10,052 nt of DNA from the NCBI GenBank assembly GCA_014621425.1, contig JAANBB010000797.1, positions 1 to 10,052 of the forward strand. Reading direction: 5' to 3'. The position numbers were made by a program, and so were the translations under genes. Below the pieces are notes generated by a model that was not told the origin of the DNA, ran no database searches, and saw only the letters and a list, made by a program, of their open reading frames with translations. The DNA is from Cylindrodendrum hubeiense. Taxonomy: Eukaryota > Ascomycota > Sordariomycetes > Hypocreales > Nectriaceae. Every line of letters begins with the position of its first letter. The stretch's first letter is position 1. This document shows, piece by piece, positions 2,841-9,460 of this stretch.

Positions 2841-2843
2841 TGA
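2424..2843 (+). CDS. KP4-like killer-toxin family secreted protein, right copy (3' end altered by transposon)
   Basis: Two exons (2424-2581 and 2645-2843) flank a 63-nt GTAAGT...TTTTAG intron (2582-2644). The predicted product is 118 aa against 120 aa for the left copy. The secretion-signal coding part is identical to the left gene over its first 75 nt. All 8 cysteines are kept. A mobile element inserted after the codon for the last cysteine, and its first three bases (TGA, 2841-2843) form the stop, so two terminal residues are lost. The displaced original end, including a TAA, lies after the element at 3783-3791. The 3' untranslated region must now come from the element if the gene is expressed. 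Replacements against the left copy cluster around residues 27-35. Family assignment rests on the cysteine pattern and on homology to the left copy. Confidence 0.75.
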
Positions 2844-3778
2844 AGCGGTGGGGATTGCCGCTTCAGGCAGGAAGGGCCGGGAAATGTGGGGCCGCTCGGA
2901 AGGGTGGATAAAAGGGAGGGTCTCTGACCGGAGACCTGGGGAAGGGACATCAAAGCATCATTCATTCAAGCATCGACAAGAGACTCCTTTTGAAAGGATA
3001 GCTTGGTGGAGGAACGAGACCTTCCCTAGCCCTCCTAGCAGAGCCTGTTTTTATTTCTGTATTATCTGAATTAATTTGCATTTTCCTCCGATTTATCTCT
3101 TGTGTTTGTCGCGCCCGAGTCTTTGGGATCGGGATTTACATCACTTTATTCACGGTTTTCAACGCCTTGCCAACGCGAAGACCATCTTTCTTTCAGCCCA
3201 AGTGTCACGGCCCATGTAGTGACCAGGCGGTCACTACAGGCAGTAATTCATGACCCACTTTTCTTTTTATTATTACAGGCCAAATACTCTGGACCAATCA
3301 TGTAAGGAGCGACACGCTAGGGACCGACGGCGCTCCAGGAGCGCACCGCTCCATGGATCACGGCGCTCCGTCACTCCATCGCTCCACCAGTTATATATAT
3401 ACGAACCATTTCACTTTAGATAGATACACTCCTTAGCTATCAACAGACTTGATTACACAGACACTCCCGTTTGCACATTATCAGACCCCGTGACCCCTTT
3501 GCTCAGTACACGTCCTGGTCCACTTGGATCATACCCCAACACATTCCTGCCTACCCTATACCTTCACCAGTATATAGTAGCTAGAACGTCACACCAAGCA
3601 CCTCATTAGATGCTTTCCTTCCCTTTGAACCACGAGTCGAGAAGTCACAGCCAATAGCTCCAGCTGCGGCCTATGCACATACCCGACCCAGGGAGACTTG
3701 CTGCAGACACTTGAATGAGGATTTCTGTGGGAGGGCATTTATTTGGGTGTTGGGCTACGACTCTTTCCCGCCGCTTCA
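2841..3778. mobile_element. Short TIR element, copy 1, in the KP4-like gene (TSD TTGT)
   Basis: Termini are TGAAGCGGTGGG and, on the other strand, TGAAGCGGCGGG: a 12-bp inverted repeat with one mismatch. The flanks TTGT at 2837-2840 and 3779-3782 form a 4-bp target duplication. The uninterrupted left gene copy shows the empty site. Without the nested LTR and its duplication the element is 542 bp. The 5' end is a hairpin (TGAAGCGG, then CCGCTTCA nine bases later). A second hairpin is GGTCTC 2919-2924 with GAGACC 2931-2936, and a GGATAAAAGG TATA-like string lies near 2905-2914. There is no transposase. TIRs and length suggest a non-autonomous DNA transposon; I cannot name the superfamily. Confidence 0.75.
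3203..3593. mobile_element. Solo LTR nested in TIR element copy 1 (TSD CCAAG)
   Basis: A 391-bp insertion starts TGTCACGG and ends CGTCACA, flanked by the 5-bp duplication CCAAG at 3198-3202 and 3594-3598. The second copy of the host element reads straight through the corresponding position (about 4389-4394), so the boundaries are seen directly. TG...CA ends with a 5-bp duplication and no internal coding region are the marks of a solo LTR left by LTR-LTR recombination. TGTCACGG-type ends suggest a Ty3/Gypsy relative. Inside are a perfect 9-bp inverted repeat (GTAGTGACC 3216-3224, GGTCACTAC 3229-3237), several CGCTCC/GGAGCG repeats between about 3329 and 3386, and a TATATATATA at 3392-3401 that could be the LTR promoter. 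Confidence 0.85.
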
Positions 3779-4024
3779 TTGTGCAAACTAATGTATAACC
3801 GCTACATATAAGCTTTTCTTAGAAGCATGTTGATAATCTTCATCTAGGTGCTGATTTGGAATTCAGGGATGGGTTTGAAATATAAACGAAATTGGGTGAA
3901 AGAAAAGGGTCCTAACTATTACTATAGGTAACGATAGCTACCTAAGTACTTACTACTATCACTAATATATCCCTTTACAATAACATATACTGTAGTCAAG
4001 TAAAAGTGCAATGGTAACAGGTAC
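3779..4024. other. Original 3' flank of the right KP4-like gene
   Basis: It begins with the second TTGT target duplication and the displaced last codons of the KP4-like gene (GCA AAC TAA at 3783-3791), then an AT-rich stretch. Similarity to the left arm ends near 3806. No gene or repeat was recognised in the rest. Confidence 0.6.
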
Positions 4025-4571
4025 TGAAGCGGTGGGGATTGCCGCTTCGGGAAGGAAGGACCGGGAAATGTGGGGCCGCTCGGAAGGGTGGATAAAAGGG
4101 AGGGTCTCTGACCGGAGACCTGCGGAAGGAAGAAAAAGAAGAAGCATCATTCATTCAAGCATCGAGAAGAGACTCCTTTTGAAAGGATAGCGTGGTGGAG
4201 GAACGAGACCTTCCCTAGCCCTCCTAGCAGAGCCTGTTTTATTTTCTGTATTATCTGTATTAATTTGCATTTTCCTCCGATTTATCCCTTTTAGTTGTCG
4301 CGCCCGAGTCTTTGAGATCGGGATTTACATCACTTTATTCACGGTTTTCAACGCCTTGCCAACGCGAAGACCAACATTCTTTCAGCCCCAGCACCTCATT
4401 AGATGCTTTCCGTCCCTTTGAACCACGAGTCAAGAAGTCACAGCCAATAGCTCTAGCTGTGGCCTACGCACATACCCGACCCAGGGAGACTTGCTGCCGA
4501 CACTTGAACGAGGATTTCTGTGGGAGAACACTTATTTGGGTGTTGGGCTACGACTCTTTCCCGCCGCTTCA
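4025..4571. mobile_element. Short TIR element, copy 2 (LTR-free)
   Basis: A 547-bp copy of the element at 2841-3778, with the same TGAAGCGGTGGG start and CCGCCGCTTCA end and an uninterrupted site where copy 1 holds the solo LTR. Most differences from copy 1 are transitions, plus a few small indels. One is around 4131-4141, where an A/G-rich stretch replaces GGACATCAAA. The flanks do not match: GTAC before (4021-4024) and TTGG after (4572-4575). Left flank is the KP4-gene 3' region, while right flank is mid-transposase sequence. This is best explained by recombination between two copies of the element at different sites, deleting what lay between. Confidence 0.75.
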
Positions 4572-4870
4572 TTGGGCTATTGCAATAACTCTAAATGGCT
4601 GGACCGATAATGAAACAGGTCTTGAGTGGCTCAAGCACTTTGATCGGCATATAAAGAATCGATCGACCGGTCGCTATCGTCTTCTAATCCTCGATGGGCA
4701 TGAAAGTCATCACTCCGTCGACTTTGAGAAATATTGTGAAGAGAACGACATTATTACGCTTTGTATGCCGCCTCATTCATCTCACCTGCTCCAGCCTCTT
4801 GATGTCGGGTGCTTTGGGCCACTTAAGAAAGCCTACGGTCGAGAAATTGAGCAGTTGATCAGATGCTCTA
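4572..4870 (+). pseudogene. Pogo/Fot-type transposase, catalytic-core fragment (5' truncated)
   Basis: The frame reads WAIAITLNGWTDNE, then GLEWLKHFD, LLILDGHESH and PPHSSHLLQPLDVGCFGPLK, the hallmark of the DDE superfamily endonuclease of fungal Tc1/mariner, pogo/Fot elements. The second and third catalytic aspartates are at 4693-4695 and 4801-4803 with 35 residues between them (DD35D). The first aspartate (usually in an MDE-G context), the N-terminal CENP-B/HTH DNA-binding domain and the start are missing, cut off at the border of TIR element copy 2. The frame runs on into the next insertion, where it meets a stop at 4918-4920. The remainder of the same gene is at 8808-9460. It cannot encode active transposase. 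Confidence 0.85.
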
Positions 4871-4899
4871 CAGTTATGAGCAAAACTAGATTCCTATTT
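4871..4899 (+). repeat. Left terminal inverted repeat of NLR-carrying element
   Basis: Begins CAGTTATGAGCA directly after TA. It pairs with 8777-8805, with mismatches at TIR positions 13, 20 and 26. Confidence 0.85.
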
Positions 4900-5277
4900 G
4901 ACCAAGTATTAAAGAAATAACTAGGCGCATGGACCACGTGACGCAGTATTAATATGGCTGCTGTGGACTGTAGATGCACAGAGAGACTTGGTAGGAGCAG
5001 GAATAAGCCAAAACTGGCTTAAAAAAGTAAGCTAGTCTGGTCCGCGTCCACTTTAGAAATGTACTATAATCCATACACAGTGCAAACACACTGTACCCAT
5101 CTACGTCATTTCATCACGTTCGGTCCACAGTGGAAGGCCGAGACTGGGTACAGAATTGACTGACATAATCAATCACCTGATTACCTCCCACCATATCACG
5201 GGGATCTCCAATTTGAGCCCGCAAAAATGTCGCCACAACCAATTTAGAGTCTACATTAGATTGCAGTCTCTCCTGCC
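4900..5277. other. Non-coding left interior of the NLR element
   Basis: About 380 bases between the left TIR and the NLR stop codon, which would hold the NLR 3' untranslated region. It contains a small hairpin (AAGCC...GGCTT, about 5007-5021) and the strings AAATGTAC (5057-5064) and CACAGTGC (5076-5083), which reappear fused near the right end at about 8706-8720. These could be subterminal repeats. No AATAAA was found and no gene recognised. Confidence 0.5.
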
Positions 5278-8152
5278 TCAATCATGCGAATGATGAGACG
5301 GTACGGAGTTCATCCTGCTAGATAAGCGCGCATATCTTTGGCTGTCTCGCCCCCAAACTGCCTCGACCCCATTTCGTGCTCTCCGATAATACAACAAGGC
5401 TTCATCCACCCGGCCAAGCTCCACGCAAAGGATAGCAAAGTTCTCCAGTGTGTTTAAGGCAGGGATATAGGTCGCTATTAAAGTCGGCCCTAGAGCCTTC
5501 TCGTAGCCATCCAGTGCTCGCTGGTACATCGCCTTGGCGTCCTGAAGCCGGCCTTGGTCTTTGTAGAGAGCGCCCAGGTTATTGACTGTATCGAGTGTCG
5601 ATGTGTGATCTGGTCCCCATGCCTTCTCATAGCCATCCAGTGCTCGCTGGTACATCGCCTCGGCGTCCTGAAGCCGGCCTTGGTCTGCATAGAGAAGGCC
5701 TAGTGAGCCTAAAGCCACCACAGCTTTGTACTCAAGTGCCACTCCTCTCGTCGTCTCAAGACATCTGTCCGCATGCGCGAGAAGCCGCCGATGTGTAACC
5801 CAAAACTCTCTCTGATCTTGCCCCGGTATATGCGATGCTATACAACGAATCGCTGTTTGAACCATGTCTTCATCGAATTCCCGATTCAGCACATGTATCA
5901 TCCACGAATGGACGCATCCATGCACGCTGTACCCTCGTGACTCTGCCTGCTGGACTGGTGGATCAGCCTCAACAAGCCCATGACTACATAATATTCTCAT
6001 AATTCCATGAAACTGGAGCTTATTATTCGTTATCTCGGCAAGCCACCCTGGTCCATCCACTCCGCTGTCTTTCAAAAGCTCATACCATAGATCTTCATTG
6101 CTGAAATAAGCCCATTGTCGGAGAAGCATAGCTGCAATTGGGCTTTGCTGCTCGATGTGCTTATATGAAATACCCCATGTCGAGTATAAGGTTTGGTCGT
6201 ATGATGGCAGTTGCGGGGCTTCTTTATGCAATTGCAGCCACGATTGATCATACAATTGGAGATATTCAGCACAGGTCATTGCTACTTGTTCCAAGTACGC
6301 TCCAGCTGTCGCAAGAGCAAGGGGTAGTCCATCAAGTCGTAGTGCGAGGTCGTGCGCGGCGGAGTCTACCGAATTCAGCTTAGTATTCCGTTATTGTCGA
6401 TTTTGAGAGCGACTCACCTCGCTTGATGCTATCACGACGAGAAGCAGACGCTAGGATCTCTAGACTATCACTGATATCTTCCAACTTGCCCAGTTGGATA
6501 GACTGTCCCAGTTTTACCGATAACCGCGAGGTCACGATAATAGCGCCATGATCTGTCTCGGGTAGGTATTGGCGAAGATCGAAAGCCTTTGGGTCGGCGT
6601 GGTCCCGGTGATTTTTCGCTGCTTCATCAGTGTGGTCCTCCTCAGACAGGTCCGGTTGTCCACTCTTTATGGCATTTGTGCTGGTCAACATTGGGCGGTC
6701 GTAATTGTCGTAAATGAGTAACCAATGATCATTTGCCGGTTCATCCAACCACCGTTTAACCGCTTCCACAATTCTGTCGGCATCTCGGCTCTCCACCGCA
6801 CCAGATACGTACGTCATGGATGGGTCGTGTCGCATGATCCGCTCAGCAATGCGAGCAAAGCTTTGCTTCAATGTCGTTTCGTCCCTCGCGTTCAACCATA
6901 TCGCTGTTGAGTAGTCCGTACGATGTCGCTTGAAGTGTGCAATCGCAAGCTGCGTCTTGCCAATACCACCTAACCCATGTAGGATGGCAGTACGGCGTCC
7001 GATAGTCCCTTTAAGAATGTCTTGTATCCGGCTCAGCTCTTCTTCTCTTGCCACGAACCGGGTTACTTCGAAGATCTCGGACAAATTGATTGGGAGTTGG
7101 AAAGCGGCTGAATTAGATTGCGTGTTGCAGTTTCTACTATCAATAAGCTATGAATACAATATGTCATCCTTCCTATCATAGGATCGAGCTTACGTCTGCG
7201 TCTCTTCCTTAGGCAGGTGAAAGAATAGCTGTCTTGCATAGGCGGCCGCCGCTGCTGCTGCATAGCCATGCCACTGGTCATTCTTATGGCTATCGCAGTA
7301 GTCTGAGATGCCACGGATGACCAAGCATGGGAAATCGGCAAGCGCTCCTGCTGCCTCCATCTCGAAGCATAGTAGCCCATGCTGCTGTGCTAGGCGATCC
7401 CTCAGCGCAGCACTCTTGACAACCAGCTCCCCGGACGCTATTGTACCTCGGTGTACAACGACAAAAGATTCGTCGCCCTCGTTGATCTGTCTCTCGATTC
7501 GCTGCTCCGGATCACATGCACATTCATCGCAGGATTGCCCTGGCTGGTGATGAATGTAGTTTGGGTGGTAAAGATGATCATTCTCAATGCCAGGAAACTT
7601 GAAACGTCGAATAGTTCGGCGGTACTTTTGGGTTCTTTGCGCATCCACCCAGACAGGATCATCGTTCAATATCTCTCGTTGCACTGCCAGGGCTTGTGCA
7701 GCATTGAGAAGGATTTGCGGTGGCGGTGCAATAGCACCGGTCCGTTCAAAGTGACCCTCCTTTGCCTTTCCATGATCATATTGTACTGCCCCGGAGTGTA
7801 TGCCCGTCTGTTTGCTCACCACCACATGGCCTAACCGAATCATCCCGCTGTCCGTCTGTGCCGGTACACCACCTCCAATACCGACCAATAGGCCATATCT
7901 GAGGTTGGGGAATGTCATCCTCATCTGGGTAACGACCGTGGCTGCAGAGCAATTACCAGTCTGGGGGAGACCTGCAACGACGATATTGTGGTTGTTGATG
8001 CTGCCAAGCTTATAGGCATTGTGGTCTGCCGGCTTTTGGGGTAGAGGTTCGTGCTCTTCGTCCAGCATCGCCATCGCAGCGATCTGTTCTACCTCTAGCG
8101 GACAGATCCAACCCACTCTGTAGGCGTCGTGGTTGAGGCGTCTTAACGGCAT
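5278..8152 (-). CDS. NLR (STAND) protein: PNP_UDP - NB-ARC - TPR, three exons
   Basis: Exons are 8152-7194, 7133-6418 and 6365-5278, predicting 920 aa. Intron 1 (7193-7134, 60 nt) has a GTAAGC donor and a TAGTAG acceptor; either AG keeps the frame. Intron 2 (6417-6366, 52 nt) is GTGAGT to GGTAG. Residues 1-320 form a nucleoside-phosphorylase-like domain (GLLVGIGGGVP, MEAAG, RGISDYCDSHKN). Next comes NB-ARC with Walker A GLGGIGKT (373-380), Walker B WLLIYDNYD (457-465), GAIIVTSR (516-523) and GLPL (571-574). A winged-helix region has an MHD-like YSVHGCVH (704-711). TPRs lie from about 777 to 910. In fungal NLRs the TPRs are thought to sense, NB-ARC to oligomerise on ATP, and the N-terminal domain to act; related PNP domains in defence proteins bind or cleave nucleosides. 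The gene is complete and fills a transposon. The ATG at 8152 is preferred because it directly precedes the conserved YRVGWICPLEVE start of the PNP domain. Confidence 0.9.
5495..5686 (-). repeat. Near-identical TPR-coding direct repeat (126-bp period)
   Basis: The 66-base stretches 5495-5560 and 5621-5686 differ at only two positions and are 126 bases (42 codons) apart. They encode the helix pair DQGRLQDA-AMYQRALDGYEKA of two consecutive TPR units. A third, diverged unit lies C-terminal (ENFAILCVELGRVDEALLYY). Such high identity in a protein repeat indicates recent duplication or conversion and probable copy-number variation. Confidence 0.9.
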
Positions 8153-8776
8153 CTCCGGTCGGGTGAGCGCTGATGTTGTTGGAGCTGCGACGGTCTTCTC
8201 TCGAGGCTAAGGGATAAGGGAGATTTCGTGATCATCGACACGTAAGCAACATGCTGAAGATAGATTGGAGAACATGATCAGGAAACTCCAAGTACGAGCA
8301 ACAGATGTCTCGCAATCAGGCAGCATTGGGACCCGAGGAGGGGTAACGCCTAAGCGCCAGCCTTGTGCGGCTGAGCGCATCGGAGCCAACCAGACACCTT
8401 AACGTGCGGAACCAGAGTTCGCGGGTGACCTGCTGAATAGACGATTCTGTGCCAACCGAAGGCGGCTGGCCAAGGAGCTGCAGTCTCCGGTCGGCGGCTG
8501 AGGCAAATGATGATGCTTGTGGCCAGAATCGCCAGTTTCGCTTGGCTTGATGGCCGAGCTCGCTGCCCGCACGTTTCGAAGCCAGAATAAGACAACGCTC
8601 CCTGCGCCTTGTAATTCAGGTATTCACTGCTTTTGCCTGACGAACAGCTAAGGACCAATCCTGGCTCCTGGATTCTCAAAACTGCATCACACCCCGGCCC
8701 ATCCTAAATGTACACAGTGCCCAAGTTGGAAAAGTAGCACTATGTGGGGCGTAGTCTAAATTTGGAAGTGTGTTGT
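8153..8776. other. Upstream (promoter) region of the NLR gene inside the element
   Basis: About 620 bases between the NLR start codon and the right TIR. It should contain the NLR 5' untranslated region and promoter, since transcription runs toward lower coordinates. The only longer open frame (8350-8679 minus) has no recognisable motif and I regard it as chance. No convincing TATA box was found. Confidence 0.4.
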
Positions 8777-8805
8777 AAAGAGGAAGCTAGTTATGCTCAT
8801 AACTG
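8777..8805 (-). repeat. Right terminal inverted repeat of NLR-carrying element
   Basis: Ends TGCTCATAACTG immediately before TA at 8806-8807. It is the inverted partner of 4871-4899, with 26 of 29 positions matching. Confidence 0.85.
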
Positions 8806-8807
8806 TA

Positions 8808-9460
8808 TAACCCACGTTTCAAAGACCGAGTTCTTTCTAGCCTTTTATGCCGCCCACGAAGCCGCCATGACAAAGAGCAATATTGTGGGGGGCTTTCGAG
8901 GGGCTGGACTTGTTCCTATAGACACAGAAAATGTCATATCAAAGCTTGATGTGCAGCTACGGACTCCAACACCGATTGAGGAGGAGGCTAGCCTCCCTGA
9001 CCCTTGGGTCTCAAAGACGCCAAAGACCATGCTTGAGGCCAGCTCTCAGTCTGAATACCTCGAAAGACGAATTAAAAGGCATCAGAGCAGCTCTCCGGCA
9101 TCAATTCTTGAGGCCGTTATGTCACTTTCTAAGGGAACAAAGAGAATAATGCATGAGGTGGCATTATTAAGGTCTGAGGTCCAGATCCTTCGACAGGCAA
9201 ATGAGACTCTTAGTAAGCGACGGAGAGTTAAAAAAACACGGTTAAGGAATGGAGGGAAGATGACTCTAGATGAAGGAAGGGATATAATTGATCAGAAGGA
9301 CATTAATGCGCAGTTAGTGGCTGAATCGTCGAGAAGTGGTGGTCATAGAGGGTTGGCGCGATTGAAGAAAAGGTGCTGCGGAACTTGCGGAAAGACCGGT
9401 CATAATGCAAGGACCTGTCAGGTCATTATTGAGACATCTGGGGAAGAGGATAGTTATTGA
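8808..9460 (+). pseudogene. Pogo/Fot-type transposase, C-terminal part
   Basis: This continues the fragment at 4572-4870. The frame reads ITHVSKTEFF, FRGAGLVPIDTENVISKLDVQLRTPTP, then WVSKTPKT and SQSEYLERRIKRHQSSSPASI, all typical of the tail of fungal pogo/Fot transposases. A helical, heptad-like stretch (about LLRSEVQILRQANETL) is followed by a basic region and a CCHC zinc knuckle (C-x2-C-x4-H-x4-C, 9377-9418). The stop TGA is at 9458-9460. The frame is open with no internal stops, suggesting a fairly recent copy. The open frame extends upstream to 8744, but those codons come from the inserted element and are not transposase. Confidence 0.85.

Follow-up and report, generated by a model that had tools for sequence, protein, structure and literature searches.

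The window analysed here is an entire 10,052-bp contig (C775) of the fungus Cylindrodendrum hubeiense (Nectriaceae, Hypocreales), whose draft genome comprises 47.5 Mb in 798 contigs. Its central feature is a 3,935-bp element at 4871..8805, which is bounded by terminal inverted repeats (TIRs), interrupts an open reading frame (ORF) for a transposase and holds a single recognised gene, predicted to encode an intact NOD-like receptor (NLR).

An NLR gene inserted into a transposase frame

The left TIR (4871..4899, plus strand) and the right TIR (8777..8805, minus strand) are identical at 26 of 29 positions, and the element has a TA on either side, at 4869..4870 and 8806..8807. No other TA-flanked inverted repeat within positions 2901-10052 matches as well, a range that leaves out an unrelated palindrome whose arms match better than these TIRs. 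The runner-up (21/29) is a shifted register of the same pair and the next independent pair reaches 18/29, while dinucleotide-shuffled versions of the window, 60 in all, give TA-flanked inverted repeats of 20/29 at most. The host ORF, on the plus strand, encodes a pogo/Fot-type DDE_1 transposase (E 8.1e-25). Its 5' part (4264..4870) stays open up to the last base before the element and its 3' part, at 8808..9460, resumes in frame at 8808, with what we take to be a CCHC-like knuckle at its end. Joining the flanks with one TA removed gives the stop-free sequence ...EQLIRCS-ITHVSKTEFF....

Paralogues of the transposase elsewhere in the genome show the same site unoccupied. The two halves in the window aside, a 273-nt query built across the rejoined junction finds ten matches, and nine of these span the site with equal lengths in query and target; the best, C6:1399-1671, is 82% identical over the full query. 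The tenth, on C512, begins 5 nt ahead of the junction and was not counted. The host sequence is itself repeated, the segment 8806-9470 having 36 further matches in the genome. Because the host frame rejoins and the paralogues cross the junction uninterrupted, the 3,935 bp is a single-piece insertion accompanied by a TA duplication.

The gene within the element lies on the minus strand at 5278..8152. Our model starts at an ATG at 8152, contains introns at 7193-7137 (GTAAGC...TAG) and 6417-6366 (GTGAGT...TAG), ends with a stop at 5278 and encodes 921 amino acids with no internal stop. The predicted protein has an N-terminal PNP_UDP_1 effector domain (40.8 bits, cut-off 25.1), a STAND-type (signal transduction ATPase with numerous domains) NTPase recognised as AAA_16 just over threshold (33.0 bits against 32.6) and as NB-ARC just under it (19.8 bits against 23.5), and C-terminal TPR_12 repeats (80.3 bits). 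Several homologues bear the name NB-ARC and TPR domain protein. The database model of this gene, G7Z17_g13438 (P0017), is shorter at 732 aa and is 100% identical over 62% of ours. As predicted from sequence, the cargo is thus one intact PNP-NB/AAA-TPR NLR.

This receptor has no close second copy in the genome, the next match being 45% identical over the NB domain. Relatives at 80-90% identity occur in Dactylonectria estremocensis (three), Ilyonectria robusta (three, two of them probably from one contig), D. macrodidyma and Neonectria punicea. In a quick tree of 36 of the 120 listed proteins plus two of the C. hubeiense genome, sequences of the same species scatter over different subclades, a pattern that fits vertical descent with duplication.

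A first-pass annotation of this DNA had described the TIRs with their TA duplication, the interrupted transposase whose frame is restored on removal of the element, and the single intact PNP-NB-ARC-TPR receptor, and had suggested looking for empty sites in the transposase; the structure stands on each count, and the empty sites were found. There is no support for its term pogo-like as applied to the cargo element. That label fits the interrupted host ORF, where the DDE_1 domain lies outside the element; the element itself, scanned in six frames against Pfam, matched only NLR-type families and no transposase domain.

The palindrome mentioned above, at 896-2840, is large, its arms matching in two blocks of 390 and 229 bp (92-94% identity). 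Within it a small cysteine-rich gene occurs twice, in inverted orientation, and exon 2 of one copy matches MU117 (E 6e-10), with Kp4 below its cut-off. Direct repeats of about 360 bp (2841-3202 and 4025-4391, 95-96%), with 0.8 kb between them, are possibly the ends of a small long-terminal-repeat (LTR) type element or terminal-repeat retrotransposon in miniature (TRIM). A 196-bp duplication (3589-3784 and 4382-4577, 93%) has its second copy inside the host transposase frame, and a WD40-repeat ORF fragment at the contig end (9627-10052) is possibly a piece of another NLR.

A low-copy family with shared ends

Further copies of the ends were sought with three genome-wide patterns and with a profile of nine ends run over the retrieved stretches. 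At three mismatches the patterns are unspecific (38, 33 and 5 matches against 26, 30 and 2 in controls), and therefore only TIR matches with further support were used. The profile discriminates well: in leave-one-out runs each of the nine ends scores 27-48 bits, compared with a maximum of 12.8 bits in 134 kb of reversed control sequence. A spaced TIR pattern gave no match in the genome and is of little information, since it missed the window's own TIR too, and one TIR pattern gave no match in IMG/VR. Complete TIR pairs occur in the window and at C73:6237-12137 and C357:49573-52474, all three with TA on both sides. A decayed pair lies at C667:183883-185157, with a weak right end (19.8 bits) and a left TA that reads CA, and single ends stand at C135:199447 and C204:7276. 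The C357 TIRs match at 20 of 29 positions, alone no better than shuffles, and are backed by the family profile and by homology of the right end. Family units measure 2.9-5.9 kb, with TIRs of about 31 nt. The genome thus contains a low-copy, non-autonomous, TA-targeting TIR family. The search for further segments with this TIR pair, proposed at first pass, has accordingly yielded two more complete members and a weaker one, and the possibility raised there that the TIRs occur only in the window falls away, as C73 and C357 share its ends.

The C73 member (5,901 bp) is the most informative. It lies in a VCX1-like/XPB-like intergenic region, and its TIRs, like those of the window element, match at 26 of 29 positions. 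From the TIRs inward the two elements are collinear over the first 314 bp (69% identity), corresponding in the window to a non-coding left module with ACAGT/ACTGT motifs (4871..5184, plus strand), and over the last 110 bp (70%), corresponding to a right module at 8697..8805 that is shared from 8709 with C357 (68%). No alignment is found elsewhere between them. In place of the PNP-NB/AAA-TPR gene, C73 has SesA (E 2.9e-43), NPHP3_N/NACHT (E 3e-28) and WD40 (E 1.7e-19) domains, and six-frame Pfam scans matched NLR domains only, with no transposase domain. The spliced model of this second receptor is open, and its SesA/NACHT junction agrees with that of the Fusarium nematophilum protein P0121; the annotated C. 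hubeiense protein P0122 lacks 30 aa at this junction. Again there is no close second copy in the genome, the next match being 41% over the NACHT part and SesA alone reaching at most 51%. The window gene points to the left end of its element and the C73 gene to the right end. Because different NLRs lie in opposite orientation within the same ends, the two cargos would be separate acquisitions or swaps rather than diverged copies of one gene. Two stretches of C468 (18893-19068 and 24472-24650) match pieces of positions 443-677 of the C73 element at 71-82%; a TIR match on that contig (18.2 bits) has no partner in the stretch read and was not counted.

The C204 end borders sequence of a very different composition. 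Across C204:1-7276 the GC content is 22-24%, TpA/ApT is 1.3-1.4 and (CpA+TpG)/(ApC+GpT) is 0.44-0.50, compared with 45-53%, 0.7 and 1.1-1.3 outside it, and the composition changes at 7168-7225, inward of the TIR end (7276) by 50-110 bp. Read on the plus strand with X at stops, this stretch gives a WD40-type match (E 1.3e-7) and a sub-threshold NPHP3_N match (E 0.0016); a relic of a DDE_3 transposase lies on the minus strand at 1368-1784 (E 2.8e-9), and no other remnant of a transposase was found close to any family end. When the C73 receptor is compared with these relics, only its WD40 part matches, weakly (E 8e-4), and its NACHT and SesA parts do not. C204 is probably a relative carrying a NACHT-WD40 NLR killed by repeat-induced point mutation (RIP), to judge from these remnants. 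Since RIP targets repeated DNA, the stretch was probably once present in more than one copy.

Other candidates were set aside. On C135 some 470 bp separate the TIR from a paralogue of the window NLR (PNP-NB-ARC-TPR), but the TIR faces away from this gene and no partner was found within the 30 kb read, so that C135 was rejected as an NLR element; within C135:197282-203834 this end stands between the paralogue and an orphan 627-aa ORF without Pfam match, which it faces. Weak TIR matches on C46, C105 and C623 are at or under control level and have no partner in the stretches read. A TA-flanked TIR-like end at C335:96585 (21.1 bits), above control and with no partner within 4.7 kb, stays a candidate.

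How the receptors came to lie between these ends

What kind of element is this? We regard it as highly probable that it is a non-autonomous, TA-targeting transposon of the IS630-Tc1-mariner/pogo type whose sole recognised gene is a complete NLR, and that it belongs to a family with exchangeable interiors. Under this reading a transposase supplied in trans would recognise the TIRs and the end modules and move the unit by cut-and-paste, NLR genes would repeatedly be acquired or swapped between the conserved ends, and receptor genes would thereby be carried within, and perhaps between, genomes. The distribution of ACAGT/ACTGT motifs is denser at the ends: the left end of the window element, TIR included, has four in 315 bp compared with two in 3,510 bp of interior, and that of C73 has six in 315 bp compared with nine in 5,476 bp, each right end having one in 110 bp. 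The proposal made at first pass, that a whole NLR travels as transposon cargo, is strengthened by the unoccupied sites in the paralogues and by a second element with another NLR; movement itself was not seen.

Several observations weigh against this reading. All the evidence is drawn from one genome, and no site polymorphic for an insertion was seen. Neither C667 nor any of the three complete members shows a transposase domain in six-frame scans, and an intact transposase gene bearing the family TIR was not found. C357 and C667 have no Pfam match at all in six frames, hence no recognised gene, and NLRs are therefore not the sole content of the family. The annotated C73 gene P0122 (697 aa) ends ahead of the WD40 part, and joining that part, in which seven bases are N, to the receptor depends on a chosen intron. 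For C204, the NACHT match is under the curated cut-off and the left end was not found, a RIP-tolerant scan for it being no better than a reversed control. Finally, NLRs are abundant in this genome and part of the association may be due to chance; we estimate from 160-200 loci that about 2% of random 5-kb segments would hold an NLR.

Which enzyme would move the unit? TIRs starting CAGT combined with a TA target fit pogo and Tc1 alike; the family TIRs start CAGT, and the ends fit the whole IS630-Tc1-mariner/pogo group. Movement by pogo/Fot-type transposases like the interrupted one, which is compatible with a non-autonomous NLR-carrying transposon and would simply name its enzyme, is a possible assignment, if somewhat less likely than not. 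In its favour, besides the ends, are the DDE_1 copies of the genome (16 matches, several with stops); against it, the relic near the C204 end is of the DDE_3 type. No family TIR accompanies the other two DDE_3 genes, on C83 (5 kb read) and C479 (4 kb read), and the best TA-flanked pair at the C479 gene matches at 17 of 24 positions. The C83 gene belongs to a Tc1/mariner-type element of its own (C83:73614-75131), with an open 530-aa DDE_3 ORF and long matching TIRs starting TACGGAGG.

The window element could alternatively be a one-off, accidental capture, with the second NLR element a coincidence in an NLR-rich genome. NLRs are indeed common in C. hubeiense, with at least 148 NPHP3_N matches, obtained by scoring 150 candidates out of 185 and including genes that match twice, and 13 matches to the window NB domain, the window NLR included, and neither C357 nor C667 offers a third recognisable receptor. 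Yet where some 2% is expected per random segment, one of the two complete members other than the window element has an intact NLR, and one of the three incomplete members, C204, has NLR relics beside its TIR. Leaving out the window element, which was chosen for its NLR, our own estimate of the chance of such content is about 4% if only complete members count, falling below 1% when C204 is added. The excess of NLRs over chance is suggestive, not decisive, and we consider accidental capture improbable.

That two separate miniature inverted-repeat transposable elements (MITEs) flank a resident NLR which was never cargo is a good deal less likely still. MITEs are abundant in fungal genomes and the C135 and C204 ends stand single, but the whole 3,935 bp splits a single transposase frame and is accompanied by one duplicated TA, and the modules at its left and right ends differ from each other and occur in the same order in C73; at the window itself two chance MITEs are ruled out, since the entire unit is missing from the paralogue sites. 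An assembly artefact, in which an NLR contig was joined into a pogo copy, can almost be dismissed: the window is an entire contig of a 798-contig draft, but a mis-join would leave the matching TIRs, the exact TA duplication and the restored frame unexplained, as it would the recurrence of these ends in C73 and C357.

Returning to the exchangeable transposon, the C73 cargo offers a lead as to movement between species. With gap columns omitted, its NLR has 96.2% identity with P0121 of F. nematophilum and 95.6% with a sequence of Ilyonectria destructans; the listed values, gaps counted, are 96% and 92%. The exchanger gene adjacent to the element is, gap-free, 92.0% identical to that of Ilyonectria sp., 87.6% to Neonectria magnoliae, 86.0% to D. 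macrodidyma and 83.7% to F. nematophilum (as listed, 90, 85, 86 and 82%, respectively). That the cargo is closer to F. nematophilum than the host gene is, on a baseline of a single host gene and with NLR rates that vary, is a lead for horizontal transfer and no proof of it. A reversed order of relatedness between cargo and host gene was considered and dropped, because I. destructans is almost as close as F. nematophilum, leaving no clear conflict with the order of the tree. P0121, which represents a cluster of six sequences, comes from a contig of 5,934 bp in F. nematophilum, compared with 5,901 bp for the C73 element, and this contig may be the C73 element as a collapsed repeat. A broader scenario, in which a small-transposon lineage serves as an immune-receptor shuttle, its ends taking up or swapping NLRs and spreading, with losses to RIP and some carriage between species of Nectriaceae, is speculative and, in our judgement, rather unlikely as a whole.

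Comparison with known cargo-bearing elements

The nearest fungal precedent for a TA/TIR unit carrying a host gene is, in the literature available to us, ToxTA (formerly ToxhAT) of Bipolaris, Pyrenophora and Parastagonospora. PMC12506042 reclassifies it as a likely non-autonomous Tc1/mariner element with TIRs and a TA duplication, which carries the host gene ToxA and is linked to horizontal transfer; it is 14 kb long, has 74-bp TIRs and effector cargo, and is itself a passenger of a Starship (PMC12506042). The present elements are likewise TA/TIR units with a host gene, but are only 2.9-5.9 kb long, with TIRs of about 31 nt and with NLR cargo that differs between members. The first-pass annotation cited gene cargo in Starships and in some Helitrons and MULEs, and knew of no NLR inside a Tc1/mariner-type element. 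For a cargo gene in a TA/TIR element of this type ToxTA is a precedent (PMC12506042), whereas the open-licence literature searched yielded no report of an NLR carried by a TIR element of the Tc1/mariner or pogo type.

PMC12134995 and PMC12506042 count NLRs among the accessory genes of Starships, with one SesA-NACHT-WD NLR reported, which resembles the C73 cargo in architecture. Starships are very large, reaching up to about 700 kb, and are moved by a DUF3435 tyrosine recombinase. The elements described here differ in being small TIR/TA units, and six-frame Pfam scans of the window and C73 elements revealed no DUF3435 domain. Another parallel is provided by the Pack-type elements of plants (Pack-MULE and similar), which are non-autonomous, have TIRs and exchange interiors that stem from host genes, usually as gene fragments. 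The likeness lies in the exchange of interiors; here, in contrast, whole, open, intron-bearing receptor genes are carried, in a TA-targeting family.

NLR number is highly variable among families of Sordariales, and duplication of NLRs is expected to conflict with RIP, according to PMC12258605. The NLR classes found here are the same as in the fungal repertoires of that study, the available text of which does not treat carriage by TIR elements (one 'transposon', one 'transposable element', no 'mobile' or 'Starship').

If our reading is true, a small element carrying a whole receptor could bring about the gain, loss or relocation of individual receptors with no need for the very large Starships, and presence or absence of intact NLRs at TA sites would be expected between strains. 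Innate immune receptors would then form a class of transposon cargo beside effectors such as ToxA.

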